Assembly (NCBI GenBank): GCA_022511225.1 | Contig: JAFLRZ010000014.1 | Span: 1 to 50,408 of the forward strand | Length of the DNA stretch: 50,408 bases | From: Eubacterium sp. | GTDB taxonomy: Bacteria > Bacillota > Clostridia > Oscillospirales > Acutalibacteraceae | Direction: 5' to 3' | Shown: piece by piece, positions 39,644 to 47,281 of the stretch | Layout: each line of letters begins with the position of its first letter | Position numbering within the stretch: the stretch's first letter is position 1 | Position numbers and translations under genes: made by a program | The notes under the pieces: model-generated | What the model saw: the letters and a program-made list of their open reading frames with translations, nothing else | Database searches by the model: none | What the model was told of the DNA's origin: nothing

Positions 39644-40904
39644 TGTCAGTCTCCTTTCTTCTTGACCTCTCATTCATAATAAGACAGCCGTCAAAATTTA
39701 ATTTATTCTTAACGATATCTTCTGCATAGGCTCTGCAGCTCGGAGCACCGCAGGCACCGCAATCGATACCGGGAAGATTGTTCTTAATTTTTTGGATATC
39801 AGCCATCATTCTCATTGACTGCGCCATACTGTCGCTGAGCCGCGTTATAGGTTGATATTCAGGAAGCTCGTTAAACAGATAAGATTCCGGAATGTAGTTA
39901 TCATTACCAATGAAATTCTGTGAAACCGGAAGATATCGTCTTAGCGATTGTAATCGAGCCTTTGCAACAAACGGATTTTCCATAGCCATAACACCGCCAA
40001 CGCAACCGCCGGGGCAGGCATTAAGCTCTATGAATTCAAGCTGAGGTATATTTCCGTTTTCAATTTGATCAAGAACACGGATAATATTGTCAATACCGTC
40101 TGCAGCAAGATAGTTTTCATTGAATATGGCTGTTGCTTCTCCGCCAGAGCTTGCCCAGCCGATACCGATAATACCTGATTCGCAAAGTGCCTTAATATCA
40201 TTGTCCTGCGACATTTCGCTTATAAGCATAAAGTATATGTCGCTTATCGAAACAACCTCGTCAACCTCGCTTTTGTAATCAGCAAAGCCGTTTTTAACGT
40301 AGCTTACTTTAGCAGGGCAGGGGGATATAAAGCAAATTCCTATATCCTCAGCTTTTAGCTCAGGATTCTCTTTAAGTGCCTTTTCTCTTGCAAGCCTTGC
40401 CGCAACCTCCATTGGAGGAAGCATATGCAAAATGTTGTCGTTAAGTGACGGGAAACGTAACCCTATAAGCCTTACAACAACAGGACAAGCTGAACTTATT
40501 ATCGGCTTTTTTATTCCATCGGTTTTAAGATAAAGTCTTGTGTATGCGGAAACAAGCTCTGCAGCCTTTGAGACCTCAAATACTTCATCAAAGCCGATTC
40601 TGATAAGTCCGTCAAGAACGTAATCAACGTCGTCAAGATTATCAAACTGACCGTAAAGTGTCGGTGCAGGAAGCGCAATCTTATACTTAAAACGCTTCAT
40701 ATTTTCAAGCTTTGAGAAAACTGCTTTCTTTGCATTGTGAGGGCAAAGACGTATGCACTCTCCGCAGTCGATACATCTCGTCTGGTTAATTGCCGCGTGA
40801 CCGTCTTTAATTCTGATTGCTTCAGTGGGGCAGTGCTTCAGGCAGGTTGTGCAGCCTGTGCATTTGCTCGCATCAAGCAAAACGGAATGTTCATATGTAT
40901 GCAT
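39633..40904 (-). CDS. Atypical, probably sensory [FeFe]-hydrogenase (HydS-like, group D style)
   Basis: A 423-residue protein. N-terminal two-cluster ferredoxin domain (CTGCTTCLKHC, CIDCGECIRLC, residues 15-54), H-cluster domain, and a C-terminal FeS domain (Cys382, 385, 390, 407; CGACGAPSC). The three H-cluster motifs differ from catalytic enzymes: SSACPVV (137-143) instead of TSC(C/S)PGW, SPCPAKV (194-200) instead of MPCTAKK, and ACPGGCVGGVM instead of GCPGGCVNGGGQP. In studied HydS proteins the proton-transfer Cys is likewise replaced by Ala and activity is low, fitting an H2 or redox sensor. No PAS domain. It sits amid GHKL and DRTGG genes. Confidence 0.85.
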   Translation of the reverse strand: MHTYEHSVLLDASKCTGCTTCLKHCPTEAIRIKDGHAAINQTRCIDCGECIRLCPHNAKKAVFSKLENMKRFKYKIALPAPTLYGQFDNLDDVDYVLDGLIRIGFDEVFEVSKAAELVSAYTRLYLKTDGIKKPIISSACPVVVRLIGLRFPSLNDNILHMLPPMEVAARLAREKALKENPELKAEDIGICFISPCPAKVSYVKNGFADYKSEVDEVVSISDIYFMLISEMSQDNDIKALCESGIIGIGWASSGGEATAIFNENYLAADGIDNIIRVLDQIENGNIPQLEFIELNACPGGCVGGVMAMENPFVAKARLQSLRRYLPVSQNFIGNDNYIPESYLFNELPEYQPITRLSDSMAQSMRMMADIQKIKNNLPGIDCGACGAPSCRAYAEDIVKNKLNFDGCLIMNERSRRKETDNDS

Positions 40905-40917
40905 ATTATCACACTAC

Positions 40918-41340
40918 TTAAATGTTAACTCTCATTGTCACCGTTGTTCCTACCCCTACGGTAGAATCAATTTTCATTGAATCGGTGTAGCGTTTCATAT
41001 TTGGCAAACCCATTCCTGCGCCGAAGCCCAGTGAACGCGTATCGTCAGAAGCGGTAGAATAACCCTCCTGCATTGCCTGCTCAATATTTTTGATACCGGG
41101 ACCGCTGTCTGCAAGAATCATTTCTATATAATCTTCACAAACCTTCACGTCAACAGTTCCTCCGTTAGCGTGAATTACCATATTAATTTCTCCCTCATAC
41201 ATAGCGATTGAAACGCGTCTGATTATTTCAGGGGAAATACCAAGTTGCCGTAAATCCTTTTTGATTTGTACTGATGCCTGACCTGCCGAGGTGAAGTCCT
41301 CGCCGTCAACATCAAAATGAAAAATAAGTTCTTCGCTCAA
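40918..41340 (-). CDS. RsbW/RsbT-like anti-sigma-type ATPase in hydrogenase operon
   Basis: A 140-residue GHKL ATPase without other domains: YEGEINMVIHANGG (N-box), LADSGPGI (G1) and GFGAGMGLPNMKRYTDS (G2). This is the size and layout of serine-kinase/anti-sigma proteins such as RsbT and RsbW. TTG start at 41340 overlaps the DRTGG stop (TTGA) after AGGTGA. Together with the neighbouring DRTGG protein and sensory hydrogenase it could pass on a redox signal by binding a partner. Confidence 0.84.
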   Translation of the reverse strand: MSEELIFHFDVDGEDFTSAGQASVQIKKDLRQLGISPEIIRRVSIAMYEGEINMVIHANGGTVDVKVCEDYIEMILADSGPGIKNIEQAMQEGYSTASDDTRSLGFGAGMGLPNMKRYTDSMKIDSTVGVGTTVTMRVNI

Positions 41341-41690
41341 GATTTCACCTTATTACCTGCAAGGCCGTTTGAATAAATTATACCGCAAGCCTCATAAAGA
41401 CGCTTGTCAGTGCACATAACAACAATTCCGTTGTCCCTTGCAAGAGTAACCATTTCCTCTGTCGGAGTTTTTGAGCGAACAAAAACAACACAAACCATAT
41501 CCATCATTACGGCAGTTCGGATAACTTGTGGATTTATGAGTCCGGTAAGCAGTACAGCCTGATCCTTAACGTATGCTAAAACGTCGCTCATCAAATCGCA
41601 GCCGCAAGCAGAGTAAACCTCACGACCGAGATTTTCTTCGCAACATACTATGTTAGCATCAAGCAATTCCTTCATCTCGTTGATTTTCAT
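41337..41690 (-). CDS. DRTGG-domain protein 1 of hydrogenase operon
   Basis: A 117-residue stand-alone DRTGG domain: GCDLMSDVLAYVKDQAVLLTG and VIRTAVMMDMVCVVFVRS match the fold's first helix and core strands. The sequence differs clearly from the paralogue at 39317, so the two probably bind different partners or form a heterodimer. AAAGGAC before the ATG. Its end overlaps the RsbW-like gene. Confidence 0.82.
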   Translation of the reverse strand: MKINEMKELLDANIVCCEENLGREVYSACGCDLMSDVLAYVKDQAVLLTGLINPQVIRTAVMMDMVCVVFVRSKTPTEEMVTLARDNGIVVMCTDKRLYEACGIIYSNGLAGNKVKS

Positions 41691-41734
41691 AAAAATAAGT
41701 CCTTTGTGAATTTAAGTTGGCGATAGCTGAAAAA

Positions 41735-42232
41735 TCAATCGTTGTATTTAGCAAGAATACCGGGAATATCATCGGCTGTAAGCTTGCCGTACACTTCATC
41801 ATTAACGGTTAAAACAGGACCAAGACCGCAAGCACCTATGCAGCGGCATGCTTCCAGTGAGAATTTTCCGTCAGGAGTGCATTCATCAATTCCAATACCC
41901 AATTTTTCTGAAAGAGCGTCTAAAAGACTCTGGGAGCCCTTTACGTAGCAGGCAGTACCCATACATACAGATATATTATACTTTCCTTTTGGTGTTAATG
42001 AAAATTGAGCATAAAAGGTAGCAACTCCGTAAATCTTTTCAAGCGGAACGTTCATACCTTCAGCAATCATTTTCTGCACTTCAATCGGAAGATAACCGTA
42101 AATATCCTGAGCCTCCTGCATAACTGCCATAACACGGCTCTTATCGTGCTTGTTAGCATCAATGATTTCCTTCAACTTCTGCTCCTGTTCGGGCGTACCG
42201 TTAAAAGGTAAACTGCTGATTTTTTTCTTCAT
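41735..42232 (-). CDS. hydC: Hydrogenase [2Fe-2S] subunit HydC (NuoE-like)
   Basis: The NuoE-type subunit of HydABC, joining HydA and HydB. 165 residues: N-terminal helical bundle (AQDIYGYLPIEVQK, GVATFYAQF) and thioredoxin-like [2Fe-2S] domain with Cys90, Cys95, Cys131 and Cys135 (CMGTACYVKG, CRCIGACGLGP). The start at 42232 has GAGAGGAG eight bases upstream; an in-frame ATG at 42280 is not supported by a site and adds only a repeated MIIKL sequence that comes from the promoter region. First gene of the operon, while hydB and hydA are last, with six genes of signalling type between. Confidence 0.95.
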   Translation of the reverse strand: MKKKISSLPFNGTPEQEQKLKEIIDANKHDKSRVMAVMQEAQDIYGYLPIEVQKMIAEGMNVPLEKIYGVATFYAQFSLTPKGKYNISVCMGTACYVKGSQSLLDALSEKLGIGIDECTPDGKFSLEACRCIGACGLGPVLTVNDEVYGKLTADDIPGILAKYND

Positions 42233-42311
42233 AGAAAAAACTCCTCTCGTAAGTTTAATTATCATTAGTTTAATAATCAACTTATATTAACACATTTGCT
42301 TTTAAATGTGA
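42233..42311 (-). promoter_or_regulatory. Promoter/operator region of the hydrogenase operon
   Basis: Read on the minus strand it holds a possible promoter TTGATT-17-TAAACT, which is embedded in a 15-base tandem repeat (TGATTATTAAACTAA then TGATAATTAAACTTA). An inverted repeat CACATTT-GCTTTT-AAATGTG lies upstream (42291-42310). The palindrome and tandem repeat are likely binding sites for a redox regulator; neither is a clean Rex or Fnr consensus. Confidence 0.5.
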
Positions 42312-42341
42312 ATACCCAATTTTATGAAATTTGACATTTTT

Positions 42342-43118
42342 TTAACAATTTTTTTTGAATATATCAAGCATATGAATAGAAAGGCCGACTAACTCCTCTC
42401 GTTCGCATATTTCCTCAATAAATTTCATATATAAATCAAACTCTTTTTTGCTCAGTCTGTCAAATTTATTGTTAAAAATATATGAAAGCATATCAACACC
42501 AACAAAATGTAATCTCGTAACGTCATAGCGTTTCATCAACTCGTCGATATCTGATTTTGTGTAAAGCTCGAATATCATATCAGGTATTGATTTTGCATGA
42601 AAATGCTCGTCTATAAATCCTTTTTCATAATAATCGAGTATACGATGCTTATAAAACATTTTGTACATACAGGTGTAATTGTTGCAATATGCTGAATAAA
42701 TAATACCGTTCTTCTTTGCAACTCTTATTGCCTCACTCAGTGCTTTGTGCTTATCAGTATCGTTATGCAGATGATACATAGGTCCGAGCAGCAGTACTAT
42801 ATCATAGCTTTCGCTCTCGATAAATGACAGGTCGCAGGCGTTACCGTTGATAATATTAATTTTATGCTTTGCCTTTACTTTCTTCTTCATAATTTCGATA
42901 TTGTGCTCTACAAGCTCAACTGCCGTTACGTCATATCCCTTTTCAGCGAGAGCAATAGAATATCTGCCTGTACCTGCACCTATTTCAAGTATTTTTGCAT
43001 TTGATGTTAAGTACTTTTCAATGAATCTCATTGTTGTCAGATATTCTGATTTTCGGCTTTTTCTTGTAAGTCTTTTGTCCTCGTTATAGTTGTTATAATA
43101 ATCTTCTACAAAACTCAT
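42342..43118 (-). CDS. Class I SAM-dependent methyltransferase
   Basis: A 258-residue soluble enzyme with the Rossmann motif ILEIGAGTGRYS (about residues 44-55), the acidic end of strand 2 in VTAVELVEHN, and GNACDLSFI and VLLLGPMYHL as motifs II-III. The substrate is not shown; the family includes small-molecule and antibiotic-modifying enzymes. Its ATG overlaps the stop of the GNAT gene by one base (TAATG), so the two are co-translated and probably serve one purpose, under the attenuator upstream of the GNAT gene. Confidence 0.88.
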   Translation of the reverse strand: MSFVEDYYNNYNEDKRLTRKSRKSEYLTTMRFIEKYLTSNAKILEIGAGTGRYSIALAEKGYDVTAVELVEHNIEIMKKKVKAKHKINIINGNACDLSFIESESYDIVLLLGPMYHLHNDTDKHKALSEAIRVAKKNGIIYSAYCNNYTCMYKMFYKHRILDYYEKGFIDEHFHAKSIPDMIFELYTKSDIDELMKRYDVTRLHFVGVDMLSYIFNNKFDRLSKKEFDLYMKFIEEICEREELVGLSIHMLDIFKKNC

Positions 43119-43588
43119 TATTTAATCTCCTTTTCGTAATTGATAATAGTCATTCGTTTGTTAATGATTTTTTCACTGCCTGTTTGCTTATATCCTGATT
43201 TTTCATACAGATGGCAGTTGTTTTTTTCTTGCTTAATTGTATCAAGACACCATCGCTGTCGGTCAGAAAAAATCTCTTCTGCCAGCTTAATAGCCTTCGT
43301 CGCAATGCCTTGATTCTGATGTTCTTTCAATACAAACAGTCTTGCAAGTCTGCCGGAATCTTCCTTAATATATATCCATATTTGTCCGACCTCAATTGAA
43401 TCGCAAATAATGAAGTACATAAACATATTTTCGTGATTATAATACTGCTTAATTTTTATATAGTTTTGGAATACGGGATTGTAAAACCAATCTCTATATT
43501 TGAGAAATGTGGGCATAAACCCTTTTCTGTGCATTTTGTATGCCTTTTTAAGCTCGTGTTTTTTAATTCTTTTTAACTCAATTTCCAT
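43118..43588 (-). CDS. GNAT family N-acetyltransferase
   Basis: A 156-residue acetyltransferase with the acetyl-CoA-binding pattern LFVLKEHQNQGIATKAIKL (Q/RxxGxA, about residues 89-107) and the late YEKSGYKQTG motif. The substrate is unknown; GNAT enzymes include aminoglycoside, streptothricin and other antibiotic acetyltransferases. GGAGG eight bases before the ATG. It lies just after a leader ORF plus terminator, the layout of drug-inducible resistance genes, and is followed without gap by a methyltransferase. Confidence 0.88.
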   Translation of the reverse strand: MEIELKRIKKHELKKAYKMHRKGFMPTFLKYRDWFYNPVFQNYIKIKQYYNHENMFMYFIICDSIEVGQIWIYIKEDSGRLARLFVLKEHQNQGIATKAIKLAEEIFSDRQRWCLDTIKQEKNNCHLYEKSGYKQTGSEKIINKRMTIINYEKEIK

Positions 43589-43604
43589 TTAAATTTCCTC
43601 CGAA

Positions 43605-43647
43605 ATATAAAAAACCACTGATAAACTTTGTGTTCATCAGTGGTTTT
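43605..43647 (-). terminator. Attenuator-type terminator before the GNAT gene
   Basis: AAAACCACTGAT pairs with ATCAGTGGTTTT; on the minus strand it is followed by TTATATTT. The U-rich tract ends 16 bases before the GNAT start, after the leader ORF. It may also end transcripts of the aldo/keto reductase gene. Confidence 0.8.
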
Positions 43648-43676
43648 ATGTTAATACAATACTCAAATCATAATAC

Positions 43677-43763
43677 CTACCGCCGAACACAACGCAAATA
43701 AGCCCATGCATAATACATAGGCTGCTGTGGTGCAGTATAAAGATTTGATACCATTATATTCAT
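43677..43763 (-). CDS. Putative 28-residue leader peptide (attenuation uORF)
   Basis: ATG 43763, GAGG eight bases upstream, stop TAG at 43677; the peptide is MNIMVSNLYTAPQQPMYYAW followed by AYLRCVRR. A strong promoter starts the transcript about 15 bases before it, and a terminator lies between it and the GNAT gene. Inside the ORF, AGCCTATG and CATGGGCT can form a hairpin (43701-43723 on the plus strand). The Arg-rich end and aromatic middle resemble regulatory leader peptides that stall ribosomes. No protein family is claimed; coding function is inferred from the site, promoter and layout. Confidence 0.68.
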   Translation of the reverse strand: MNIMVSNLYTAPQQPMYYAWAYLRCVRR

Positions 43764-43784
43764 AACTTTTACCTCGTTAAATGA

Positions 43785-43813
43785 ATAATATCATTTGCAG
43801 AGCAGTTTGTCAA
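43785..43813 (-). promoter_or_regulatory. Strong sigma-A promoter of the leader-GNAT-methyltransferase unit
   Basis: On the minus strand a perfect TTGACA (43813-43808), 17 bases, TATTAT (43790-43785), with an extended TGA before the -10 box. It begins 14 bases after the stop codon of the aldo/keto reductase gene. Confidence 0.85.
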
Positions 43814-43826
43814 TTTATATTTTGTT

Positions 43827-44939
43827 TCAAATTTTGGCTATATTTTCAAGATGCTTTCTTATTTCTAATTTCTGCGGGCAGACGTGTTCACACTTTCCGC
43901 ACTTAATGCAATCATTTGCCTTGCCGTTTGCAGATGTTACAGCTTCATATTCGCTTGAAAAATCAAAATCATCTTGAGTTACACTCTTGTTATATGCAGA
44001 AAAGATTTTCGGTATAACAATGTTTTTAGGGCAGTCATTTACGCAGTATTCGCAGGCAGTGCAGGGGATAATGCTTTGGTTGCGGAGTATTTTCGTAACC
44101 TCTTTTACTGCACTTAGCTCTTCTTCGCTTAATGGCTTAAAGTCCTTCATAAGCTCAATATTTTCTTTCATCTGCTCGGTGTCGTTCATACCCGAAAGCA
44201 CCATTTTAACATTTTCAAAGCCTGCGGCAAATCTTATTGCAATTCCTGCATTATTAGAGCTTCCAAGCTTATCATATATTTCCTGAGCTACAGAGGGGAG
44301 GTTTACAAGGCTTCCGCCCTTAACAGGCTCCATAACTATAACGGGCTTGTTATGCTTAACGCAGACCTCGTAGCACTTTCTGCTTTCAACTCTTTCGTCG
44401 TCATAATCAAGGTAATTGAATTGAAGTTGTACAACCTCAATTTCAGGTCTTTCGGTTAAAATCATATCGAGTACCTGAGCATTGTCGTGAAAAGAAATAC
44501 CCATATGCTTAACCTTACCTTGCTCTTTCAGCTTCAGTACAGTTTCATATGCGTGAAGCCTTTGGTACTTTTCAAAATAGTCTTTATTCTGTGCGTGCAT
44601 AAGGTAGTAGTCAAAATAATCAACTCCGCAGGCTGCAAGCTGGCTTTCAAATAGGGGAATAATCTCCTCCTCGGTATTAAAAAAGCCTTCTGACAGCTTG
44701 TTAGTCAGAATGTAGCTTTCCCTCGGATAACGCTTAACAAGGCACTCTCTTATAGCAATTTCACTTTTGTAATTTATGTAGCCGTGAGCAGTGTCAAAGT
44801 AGTTAAAACCGTTTTCCATAAAACAGTCAATCATCGCCTTGAAATTATCGTAATCTATCTCACCGTCTTTTAAAAGATTCAACCTCATACATCCAAAGCC
44901 AAAATTCTTTTTTACTCCGTTAAATGTATCTTCAAACAT
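43827..44939 (-). CDS. Aldo/keto reductase with C-terminal ferredoxin domain
   Basis: A 370-residue protein. The first 290 residues are an aldo/keto reductase TIM barrel with the catalytic tetrad region FDTAHGY (Asp and Tyr), the Lys in ILTNKL and the His in YYLMHAQ. The last 70 residues carry two [4Fe-4S] sites, CTACEYCVNDC and CIKCGKCEHVC. Fusions of this kind are common in Clostridia and presumably use ferredoxin-type electrons. Substrate unknown. Own promoter at 44984; ATG after GAGGAG. Confidence 0.92.
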   Translation of the reverse strand: MFEDTFNGVKKNFGFGCMRLNLLKDGEIDYDNFKAMIDCFMENGFNYFDTAHGYINYKSEIAIRECLVKRYPRESYILTNKLSEGFFNTEEEIIPLFESQLAACGVDYFDYYLMHAQNKDYFEKYQRLHAYETVLKLKEQGKVKHMGISFHDNAQVLDMILTERPEIEVVQLQFNYLDYDDERVESRKCYEVCVKHNKPVIVMEPVKGGSLVNLPSVAQEIYDKLGSSNNAGIAIRFAAGFENVKMVLSGMNDTEQMKENIELMKDFKPLSEEELSAVKEVTKILRNQSIIPCTACEYCVNDCPKNIVIPKIFSAYNKSVTQDDFDFSSEYEAVTSANGKANDCIKCGKCEHVCPQKLEIRKHLENIAKI

Positions 44940-44983
44940 ACATATTACTCCTCATACTGTTTGTTATTAAGTACGTCTTGTTG

Positions 44984-45012
44984 GTTATACCATATTTATT
45001 AGAAAATTTCAA
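44984..45012 (-). promoter_or_regulatory. Sigma-A promoter of the aldo/keto reductase gene
   Basis: On the minus strand TTGAAA (45012-45007), 17 bases, TATAAC (44989-44984), with an extended TGG before the -10 box. Confidence 0.78.
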
Positions 45013-45058
45013 AATAAAATGGTACAGATAAAGGCAAATCGATTAATTAAAAATGCAA

Positions 45059-47281
45059 TCATTTAGGCTTTTTTACTTTGTTCAAAATTTCATTAATTTC
45101 TAATATCTGCTCTTTGGTAAACATACCGCTTGCCATTGATAAAGCCCTTTTTACGGTAAATCCTTTGCCCATTTCAATCATTGTTTTACCAACAGGCATA
45201 CCCATTACTGAAATGCCTTTACTCTTTTTGCCTGATTTTTTCTTCTTAGGCTCACTTTTTTTGTCCTTATCCGTGTTTAATGCTGACAGTGCCTTCTTCG
45301 CAATGATTAATGCTGCAATTTTACCTCTAAAGGTAGAAAGAATATCACCGATTTTATCATTAACAGAGTAGTATCCAACAGGTGTATTTATCTCAAACCA
45401 GTTGATTACTTCGCCTTCGTCTTTCATTACATAGCTAACGTTGAATGTATCTACCTTATTTATTCTGCTCTCGTCGGTTAAATCTCCTGCCTTTGCAGTA
45501 ATAACGGTTTCGCCCTCATTCTTAACGTCAAAATAGAAGAACGGATATTTGCCCTTTTTTTGCTTGCCTATGCTTTCCCCGTTAGCATAAAGCTCAACCT
45601 CGTCCTGATTTGAATAGACAGTAACCTTCGTTACGTCCTCAACTCTGTCAACGTATCTCTTACCGCAGATGTGGAGCATAGGATTTTTCGACAGCCAAGC
45701 CTGATAAGCGTAAAAGCTGTCCTTTTTATACTTTCTGTCAAATGTAACAAGACCTTTGTGATTCATACCGTTCTCGCCGCCCTCAGCTCTTGCATCAGCA
45801 GCAAAATCAAACATATTCCAAACGTGTGTAGCCCAAAGATACGGTCTGTCGATAATCTGCTTTATTACCTCTTCGTGGTAATATGCCTGATACTCCTCAG
45901 TATAATCACCCTGTTCAGGCTCTGATGTATGCCAGTTAAGAGCCTCACAACCGTATTCACTTAGACCTATAGCTTTGTTCGGATATTTTTTGTGGAAATC
46001 GTCAAACCACCCACCATACATATTTACGTTTCCGCCGTACCAGCCAAAATAATGATTATAAGAAACAACGTCACTTATGTGTACGTATTCATCTTTGGTA
46101 CTGCACATTGATATAACGGCAATTGTGGTAGGTCTTGTTTTATCAAGCTTATGTGCTAATTCATTAAGCATTTTATGATTTTTTATCAAATCGGAATTAG
46201 AGCCTGCCATAGTAATTTCGTTAGATAGTCCCCATACGATAATGCTCGGATGATTATAATTCTGGCAGATGAGCTCTGTCATTTGCGATTTCGTGTTGTC
46301 GAATCCGTTTGGAAGATGCTTCGAAATATACGGAATTTCAGCCCAGACAACAAGTCCCTTTTCATCACATAAATCATAAAAATACTGAGAATGTTGATAG
46401 TGAGCAAGACGGATTGTATTTGCACCCATTTCGCATATAAGCTCTATGTCCTCTTCGTGATGCTCAGGAAGGAGAGCATTACCGATTTCCGGTCTGTCCT
46501 GATGGCGGGAAACACCTCTCAGAGGATATTCTTTTCCGTTGAGTATAAAGCCTTTCTGCGGGTTAATTTCAAAGCTTCGAATACCAAAGCGTGCCGACAC
46601 TTCATCAACGGCTTCACCGTTAACAATTAATTCAGCCGTTGCCGTATAGAGATATGGGTCTGCCGTACCGTTCCACAGATGCGGATTTTCAATTTCAAAC
46701 GTTACGTCACTGCCTGTTAATTCTTTACCGTCAACAGTAACCTTTACCTCTCCGTCGCCCTTAATAAAAGTCTTTACGTTGACCTCAGCCATATTTCCTT
46801 TAAGCTCAGGCGTTACCATAATGCCCGGAGCACCAAAGTAATCGAGATCAAAATGATTTTTGTCAACTCCTATAAGCGAAACGTCACGGTAAATACCGCC
46901 GTAAAAGGTGAAATCTGCTTGCTGAGGATAAACGAAATCATTTGGACTGTTATCAACCTCAACCCTGATAATATTATTATCCTGAATATTTTTAAGTTCT
47001 GCCCTGAAGGTTGAATACCCACCGTTGTGGACAGCTATTTCCTTATCATTGAAATAAACCTTTGAGCTTGAATTTACACCCTCAAACTGAATATATACTT
47101 CATCACCATTAGGCATATCAGCTTTAGTCAATTCCTTTTCGTAGGTGCAGATGCCTCTGTAATAATCATTTCCTCCGTCCTGACCGTCAATTCCATTCCA
47201 TGTATGAGGCAAATCAACTGTATTTCTTTCATTTTCCTTAATAAAGTTCCAGCTCTTATTGATATTAATTATATTTCTCAT
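45059..47281 (-). CDS. Glycoside hydrolase family 2 protein with unusual basic tail
   Basis: A 740-residue cytoplasmic beta-glycosidase (no signal peptide): beta-sandwich sugar-binding domain (residues 10-150), immunoglobulin-like domain (about 155-240) and TIM barrel (about 245-560). GLSNEI gives acid/base Glu355 and GLSEYGCEA gives nucleophile Glu442; the HQDRPEIGNALLPE and RLAHYQHS stretches are typical of beta-galactosidases of this branch. After about residue 650 there is a tail with KKSEPKKKKSGKKSKG and a C-terminal helical segment not found in most GH2 enzymes. It starts two bases after the symporter stop, so the pair imports and cleaves one oligosaccharide. Confidence 0.92.
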   Translation of the reverse strand: MRNIININKSWNFIKENERNTVDLPHTWNGIDGQDGGNDYYRGICTYEKELTKADMPNGDEVYIQFEGVNSSSKVYFNDKEIAVHNGGYSTFRAELKNIQDNNIIRVEVDNSPNDFVYPQQADFTFYGGIYRDVSLIGVDKNHFDLDYFGAPGIMVTPELKGNMAEVNVKTFIKGDGEVKVTVDGKELTGSDVTFEIENPHLWNGTADPYLYTATAELIVNGEAVDEVSARFGIRSFEINPQKGFILNGKEYPLRGVSRHQDRPEIGNALLPEHHEEDIELICEMGANTIRLAHYQHSQYFYDLCDEKGLVVWAEIPYISKHLPNGFDNTKSQMTELICQNYNHPSIIVWGLSNEITMAGSNSDLIKNHKMLNELAHKLDKTRPTTIAVISMCSTKDEYVHISDVVSYNHYFGWYGGNVNMYGGWFDDFHKKYPNKAIGLSEYGCEALNWHTSEPEQGDYTEEYQAYYHEEVIKQIIDRPYLWATHVWNMFDFAADARAEGGENGMNHKGLVTFDRKYKKDSFYAYQAWLSKNPMLHICGKRYVDRVEDVTKVTVYSNQDEVELYANGESIGKQKKGKYPFFYFDVKNEGETVITAKAGDLTDESRINKVDTFNVSYVMKDEGEVINWFEINTPVGYYSVNDKIGDILSTFRGKIAALIIAKKALSALNTDKDKKSEPKKKKSGKKSKGISVMGMPVGKTMIEMGKGFTVKRALSMASGMFTKEQILEINEILNKVKKPK

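Follow-up and report, generated by a model that had tools for sequence, protein, structure and literature searches.

The genes for a GNAT-family N-acetyltransferase and a methyltransferase of Eubacterium sp. stand behind a promoter, a short leader ORF and an intrinsic terminator. We consider it quite probable that they are controlled by ribosome-mediated transcription attenuation, in which the general position of the ribosome on the leader is the sensor; both the switching in the cell and the inducer are what we infer from these features. The window is the whole stretch of 50,408 nucleotides that was analysed. The features within it are as follows.

43785..43813, minus strand: promoter, TTGACA-17-TATTAT with an extended -10 (TG), read directly and by motif scan
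43677..43763, minus strand: leader ORF of 28 codons, MNIMVSNLYTAPQQPMYYAWAYLRCVRR, starting at ATG 43763, with a GAGG ribosome site on its 5' side
43724..43737, minus strand: region 1, candidate 5' arm of an anti-antiterminator, UACUGCACCACAGC, from the minimum-energy fold
43701..43723, minus strand: hairpin 1 (AGCCTATG/CATGGGCT) within the leader ORF, arms 43723-43716 and 43708-43701
43674..43692, minus strand: region 2, the antiterminator strand, TTGTGTTCGGCGGTAGGTA, comprising the last leader codons and the stop codon
43611..43647, minus strand: regions 3 and 4, the intrinsic terminator hairpin, 16 pairs, stem -20.9 kcal/mol
43603..43610, minus strand: U-rich terminator tail, TTATATTT, read directly
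43118..43588, minus strand: GNAT-family N-acetyltransferase, 156 aa, Pfam Acetyltransf_10 (3.6e-11), GGAGG on the 5' side of ATG 43588
42342..43118, minus strand: class I SAM-dependent methyltransferase, 258 aa, Pfam Methyltransf_25 (5.9e-18)

A preliminary description, made from the window alone, had named the promoter, the 28-codon ORF with its GAGG, the internal hairpin and the terminator with its U-rich tract. All of these were read on the minus strand. The GNAT gene with its GGAGG and the gapless methyltransferase gene behind it were confirmed as well: the methyltransferase ATG overlaps the GNAT stop codon (TAATG, 43118). The TTGACA box lies at 43813-43808 and, after the 17-base spacer, the -10 box, preceded by TG, ends at 43785. 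With 11 of 12 matches, this promoter scored highest of the 27 promoter-like sites in a scan of 40000-46000. U-rich RNA follows hairpin 1 on the 3' side, and hairpin 1 is likely to be an RNA polymerase pause hairpin. The predicted folding energy of the leader RNA is -57.7 kcal/mol, compared with -32.4 for shuffled sequences (z -7.1). A loose search for the layout gave a match before 3 of the 46 candidate genes in the window; by simple start and ribosome-site patterns, only this locus among the three has both a leader that begins with ATG and a strong antiterminator around the leader's stop codon. Judged from these comparisons and from the relatives described below, the layout at 43827-43588 is not a chance arrangement and is conserved.

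The GNAT was found in 17 of 80 genus genomes (E 1e-8), and promoter, leader and terminator stand upstream in 15 of these 17 loci, being absent in L047 and L049. The L049 GNAT, which is without a leader, matches in two pieces (the other is L048; genome G270) and resembles a decaying copy. The methyltransferase was found in 32 of the 80 genomes (E 1e-25). The element is present at 22 of 30 genus methyltransferase loci, directly or before a preceding gene; at the other eight, the leader is different (L076, L077), the upstream region is cut by the contig end (L054, L061, L078) or the gene follows other genes (L055, L062, L065). Most of these loci that keep the genes keep the leader as well; a lack of such conservation would have spoken against the preliminary description. 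The consensus fold of 27 aligned leaders consists of hairpin 1 and the terminator, whose stem is present in all 27. Eleven of its 20 consensus pairs are kept despite two-sided changes in at least one sequence, and each of the six pairs of hairpin 1 is retained in some sequence where one or both of its bases differ. By a loose scripted motif, a promoter (mainly TTGAC and TGnTA) was found on the 5' side of 50 of the 51 leaders collected.

A first covariance model matched in 14 of 398 family genomes. Five matches were from the genus, three from other genera with true-looking leaders (L084, L086, L087), and six (L088-L093, E 9e-4 to 7e-3) were excluded because of their resemblance to plain terminators. 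With 30 leaders as its basis, a second model yielded 41 matches, spread over 24 of the 41 genus genomes and numbering up to four per genome; among 391 class genomes, the own genome alone was matched. Because stricter filters above 40 genomes lose weak matches, the covariance counts over more than 40 genomes are lower bounds. The window's genome holds two copies of the switch. The second (L095, contig C19:22593-22753) precedes the genes for a further GNAT and for a methyltransferase that shares 61% identity with that of the window. A DNA pattern matched 22 stretches in genome_contigs. Nineteen were leader loci, many from the same genus genomes, and three (L110, L116, L121) were chance matches. 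The titles of the 19 records are of the Clostridia metagenome type (Eubacterium sp., Clostridium sp., Oscillospiraceae, Ruminococcaceae and others), with one Bacteroides sp., and some name a goat or deer source. The one DNA pattern tried had no match in viral_contigs. A leader-peptide search in 200 family genomes gave 30 loci, of which the own locus, L003 and L005 (both from the same genus) are related; most of the others were set aside as chance-like frames, where minus-strand matches had been read unturned. In Rfam, no family reached the gathering score for the leader, and only sub-threshold matches were obtained.

In the window, the terminator 5' arm pairs best with the last part of the ORF, at 43692-43674 (the duplex has -17.4 kcal/mol and z -3.6 versus shuffles). 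The preliminary description had proposed that ACCAC in the leader could compete with the terminator arm for GTGGT. This pairing was not supported; in the minimum-energy fold of the leader itself, ACCAC belongs to the 5' part. Each of the 27 aligned leaders has its strongest pairing with the terminator arm at a site that overlaps this same ORF-end element (mean z -2.8); the duplex differed from shuffles at p <=0.04 in 21 of the 27 and had p >0.04 in six. Cognate duplexes are more stable than swapped ones, both in 30 leaders (-15.1 versus -13.0) and in 41 non-redundant leaders (-14.7 versus -12.3 kcal/mol, p 5e-5, uncorrected for relatedness). Column-wise covariation is weak because the core antiterminator pairs are nearly invariant: one of eight pairs stands out (p 0.007, with four leaders without an anchor left out).

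We modelled the effect of the ribosome on this pairing by a scan in which the RNA ends at region 3 and the chance that the terminator 5' arm is held by upstream RNA is calculated. The mean chance was about 0.8 with the leading edge of the ribosome at nt 45-72 and 0.05 with the ribosome at the stop codon. For the window, the values were 0.84 at nt 72 and 0.19 at the stop codon. The predicted ribosome-position switch passes in 50 of the 51 leaders. This modelled switch and the conserved layout agree with the attenuator class to which the preliminary description had assigned the locus. The P site lies about 15 bases from the leading edge of the ribosome; with this distance, a ribosome at the critical leading edge would have its P site near codon 20. 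At equilibrium, the complete window RNA favours the terminator (0.94-0.97) for every ribosome edge from nt 0 to 72. The switch can therefore work only kinetically, through earlier formation of the antiterminator. By prediction, antiterminator and terminator are mutually exclusive and the ribosome position decides between them in this kinetic sense only. In the minimum-energy fold of the untranslated window RNA, region 1 pairs with GUUGUG and GCGGUA of region 2. The co-transcriptional model pairs region 2 with region 3 and is ambiguous about the pairing of region 1. As long as region 3 has yet to be transcribed, the model shows region 2 mostly in upstream pairs in 44 of the 51 leaders (three of the 51 with a misplaced start), and the antiterminator still competes.

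The preliminary description had suggested a check for codon-level conservation of the leader in relatives. One half of this expectation, the frame, was borne out. Frame 0 is open in 27 of 27 aligned leaders, against two and seven in the other frames, a count that is partly circular as the rows were picked as ORFs. Distances from the ATG to the antiterminator fall into phases of 37/7/0, and those from the antiterminator to the terminator into 15/15/14; this count covers 44 of the 51 leaders, which are related rows, and omits four without an anchor and three whose stored start is not ATG. The stop codon ends 8-30 nt past the start of region 2 in all 44 anchored leaders, and a ribosome site pattern is found in 26 of the 27 aligned ones. 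The leader is probably translated. These elements, their conservation, the maintained frame and the matched pairing are all legible in the sequence itself. They bear on a reading in which the RNA binds a protein or a metabolite and the ORF is incidental. The strong fold (z -7.1) and the recurrence of the RNA elements while the peptide drifts would fit such a switch. However, the phase is kept on the 5' side of the antiterminator and random on its 3' side, the ribosome site recurs, no Rfam family applies and the consensus fold holds hairpin 1 and the terminator only. We regard this reading as having almost no probability.

The other half of the expectation, conservation of the amino acids, did not hold, since these drift. 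The pN/pS value is 0.97 for the ORF, 0.92 for its first half and 1.40 for the hairpin and YAWAY columns; where RNA pairing also constrains synonymous sites, the ratio is confounded, and the last value is raised in this way. The CATGG arm of the hairpin is read in three frames, as W-A, M-G or H-G, according to the subtype. Leaders of the third subtype end in LYSFSE or similar, and matching changes in the terminator were seen by eye in L174 and L176. No amino acid is common to the sensor regions of all 27 leaders (the regex for the sensor-region anchor matched an earlier site in 4 of the 27 rows). W occurs in 26 of the 27 leaders, and W, Y, P and A recur in most.

Two explanations that keep the attenuator and change the signal can be weighed on these data. 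In the first, the leader is a specific arrest peptide of the ErmC type, which stalls at YAWAY with one drug class. In its favour are the W shared by 26 of the 27 leaders, the P-x-Y-x-A-W-A-Y-like motif of most leaders in subtype 1, and the modelled position of the W codon, close to where a stalled ribosome just frees region 2. In contrast, purifying selection on the motif, expected of such a peptide, was not found (pN/pS near 1 overall and 1.4 over the motif columns, a value partly due to RNA pairing holding synonymous sites), the other subtypes retain the RNA hairpin while reading it in other frames with other residues, and L044 has E instead of W. We judge this explanation to be unlikely, and the drug-sensing peptide conserved at codon level that the preliminary description implied finds no confirmation in these values, confounded as they are by RNA pairing. 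In the second, the leader senses charged tRNA (Tyr, Trp or Cys), as in trp-type attenuators of amino-acid starvation. The layout is similar, and the sensor region holds a cluster of Tyr and Trp codons. However, regulatory codons for a single amino acid were not found in every sensor region of the 27 leaders (L058 is without Tyr, L044 without Trp), and the downstream genes examined are not for amino-acid biosynthesis. This explanation is very improbable. On account of the missing shared sensor amino acid, the kept phase and the absence of an Rfam family, the starvation and riboswitch readings were rejected.

Because the frame, the start and the stop position are kept while the amino acids drift, the sensor appears to be ribosome position in general. 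Thus, the signal is most likely the position of the ribosome, that is, broad inhibition of translation, and not one drug-bound nascent peptide. Since W is present in 26 of the 27 leaders, some constraint on the peptide may remain, and the leader peptide may have a residual role.

We propose that attenuation by general ribosome position would operate as follows. The strong promoter would constantly make a short leader RNA, and a ribosome would trail the polymerase, translating the 28-codon leader. A probable pause of the polymerase at hairpin 1 would give the ribosome time to close the gap. When the ribosome reaches the stop codon, it would cover the last codons, and with them region 2; region 3 would then pair with region 4, and the terminator would end the RNA upstream of the GNAT gene. 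A ribosome that slows down or halts no further than about codon 20 would leave region 2 free to pair first with region 3. By this pairing, transcription would continue into the GNAT and methyltransferase genes.

The sequences of the two enzymes are less specific about their function. At least 76 GNAT homologues are among the matches listed, and the named ones are called GNAT or hypothetical only. The GNAT reached no curated NCBIfam cut-off among the models for resistance acetyltransferases, and none of the best 25 of 46 NCBIfam models reached its cut-off for the methyltransferase, which among these models thus matches no known rRNA methyltransferase. Among solved structures, the closest in sequence are those of spermidine acetyltransferases and of a methyltransferase annotated as ubiquinone/menaquinone biosynthesis-related. 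PADLOC gave weak or generic methyltransferase matches only. Plasmid records contain one methyltransferase match and four GNAT matches, all below 60% identity. No terminator is listed between the methyltransferase gene and the next, NuoE-like gene of a hydrogenase-type cluster (window 42342-42231), so that read-through could reach the latter.

The switch extends further than the preliminary description saw, for by sequence it precedes other genes too. By a simple script (open frames by simple start and ribosome-site patterns), 45 of the 51 leaders have a gene within 170 bases downstream, and in 40 of these the first gene encodes a methyltransferase or an acetyltransferase. The clusters of these first genes are methyltransferase (17), GNAT of the window type (15), two other acetyltransferase clusters (8), P-loop protein (2) and S51 peptidase (2), with one gene outside any cluster. 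Later downstream genes include a MATE efflux pump (L107, TIGR00797 above the cut-off) and a HIT protein; besides the MATE model, none of the NCBIfam models shown reached its cut-off for the downstream proteins tested. The P-loop protein recurs behind leaders (L112:1705-2250 and relatives; motif GNAAVGKMTVGQELTKITDLRLFHNH in the L112 copy). At the thresholds applied, neither Pfam nor NCBIfam gave a match for it, and it may be an undescribed kinase. As far as the script shows, one upstream gene is common to six loci and the other loci differ upstream; therefore, promoter and switch look like a portable unit.

A resistance role for the GNAT and methyltransferase is a fair guess, in which we infer that the two would neutralise a translation inhibitor. 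It is nearly an even question whether they are instead enzymes of general stress or metabolite repair behind the same attenuator, a reading that is compatible with the proposed mechanism. The resistance-family cut-offs that were not reached and the diversity of the downstream genes (GNATs, methyltransferases, P-loop proteins and S51 peptidases) argue for this. In contrast, the MATE efflux gene above the TIGR00797 cut-off further along L107, and the weak similarity of other downstream acetyltransferases to enzymes that acetylate streptothricin, aminoglycosides and bleomycin, argue against it.

Relatives of the methyltransferase occur in 40 of 197 order genomes (E 1e-35). By simple patterns, at least 9 of 29 such loci have a leader ORF, a terminator and an antiterminator of other sequences, so that the methyltransferase family seems to have come repeatedly under such control. 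L128 and L150, which were missed by the script that counted these nine, resemble attenuators by eye. In other families of the order, attenuators of unlike sequence stand on the 5' side of the methyltransferase gene at L127, L129, L132, L136, L137, L139, L140 and L141, with terminator arms CGGTGTAAGC or CGGTATAAGC, ACGGTGCAAGTC, or GCAGTGCAGGC. Sequence comparison thus suggests different attenuators with the same logic in these families.

Among the closest known systems, compared by layout, is bmrB, upstream of Bacillus subtilis bmrCD, in which a translated leader, a terminator and a less stable antiterminator allow read-through with a ribosome-targeting drug (PMC4191407). The locus described here likewise has a leader ORF and a terminator with a weaker antiterminator, its translation being predicted; in bmrB, as the source describes it, the terminator is located inside the ORF of the leader, and an ABC transporter is controlled (PMC4191407). 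B. subtilis vmlR and Clostridioides difficile cplR are similar in their uORF, overlapping antiterminator and intrinsic terminator, and the pause hairpin of vmlR is comparable to hairpin 1 (PMC9226507, PMC10201436). However, their uORFs are described as having three codons, probably sensing at the start codon, with ABC-F targets (PMC9226507, PMC10201436), whereas here the ORF has 28 codons and the switch is at its end. The Escherichia coli toiL uORF is reported to respond to ribosome-targeting drugs of several classes through stalling at differing positions; it acts on the ribosome site and Rho at one locus, in contrast to the intrinsic terminator here (PMC12121999). The whiB7 uORF, a translation-stress leader that feeds a set of resistance genes, is the likeness we propose for the repeated loci, although in that account a single leader serves a transcription factor (PMC12121999), whereas the present leader recurs in front of distinct loci. 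A survey of structured RNAs in 26 genomes reports uORF motifs, and its main text is without the words acetyltransferase and methyltransferase (PMC8632094). No description of this element was found among the open-access matches listed, as judged by their titles and the opening lines of their abstracts. The suggestion that the unit is undescribed therefore stands within Rfam and these matches. By its feature set, the element is a predicted ribosome-mediated transcription attenuator of a family that is new relative to Rfam and the open-access matches listed. As a variant, on the sequences compared, it is set apart by its near-confinement to one genus, its GNAT and methyltransferase targets instead of an ABC transporter or ABC-F protein, its repetition before several loci and the apparent freedom of its peptide.

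The geometry of the RNA and the length of the ORF are maintained as the peptide changes, which points to the ribosome, not the peptide, as the receptor. We tentatively suggest, at somewhat less than even probability, that one genus has placed a portable promoter-leader-terminator unit before many unrelated genes for modifying enzymes as a distributed sensor of translation inhibition. If so, this would be a translation-stress regulon dispersed in cis, with a logic comparable to that of T-boxes, and the switch would be a guide to unknown resistance enzymes. If the mechanism proposed here works, the switch would mark genes that are induced when translation is attacked. It would then offer a route to undescribed resistance enzymes in commensals for which knowledge of the substrate is not needed, and a natural test of whether many inhibitors can be sensed through ribosome position alone.
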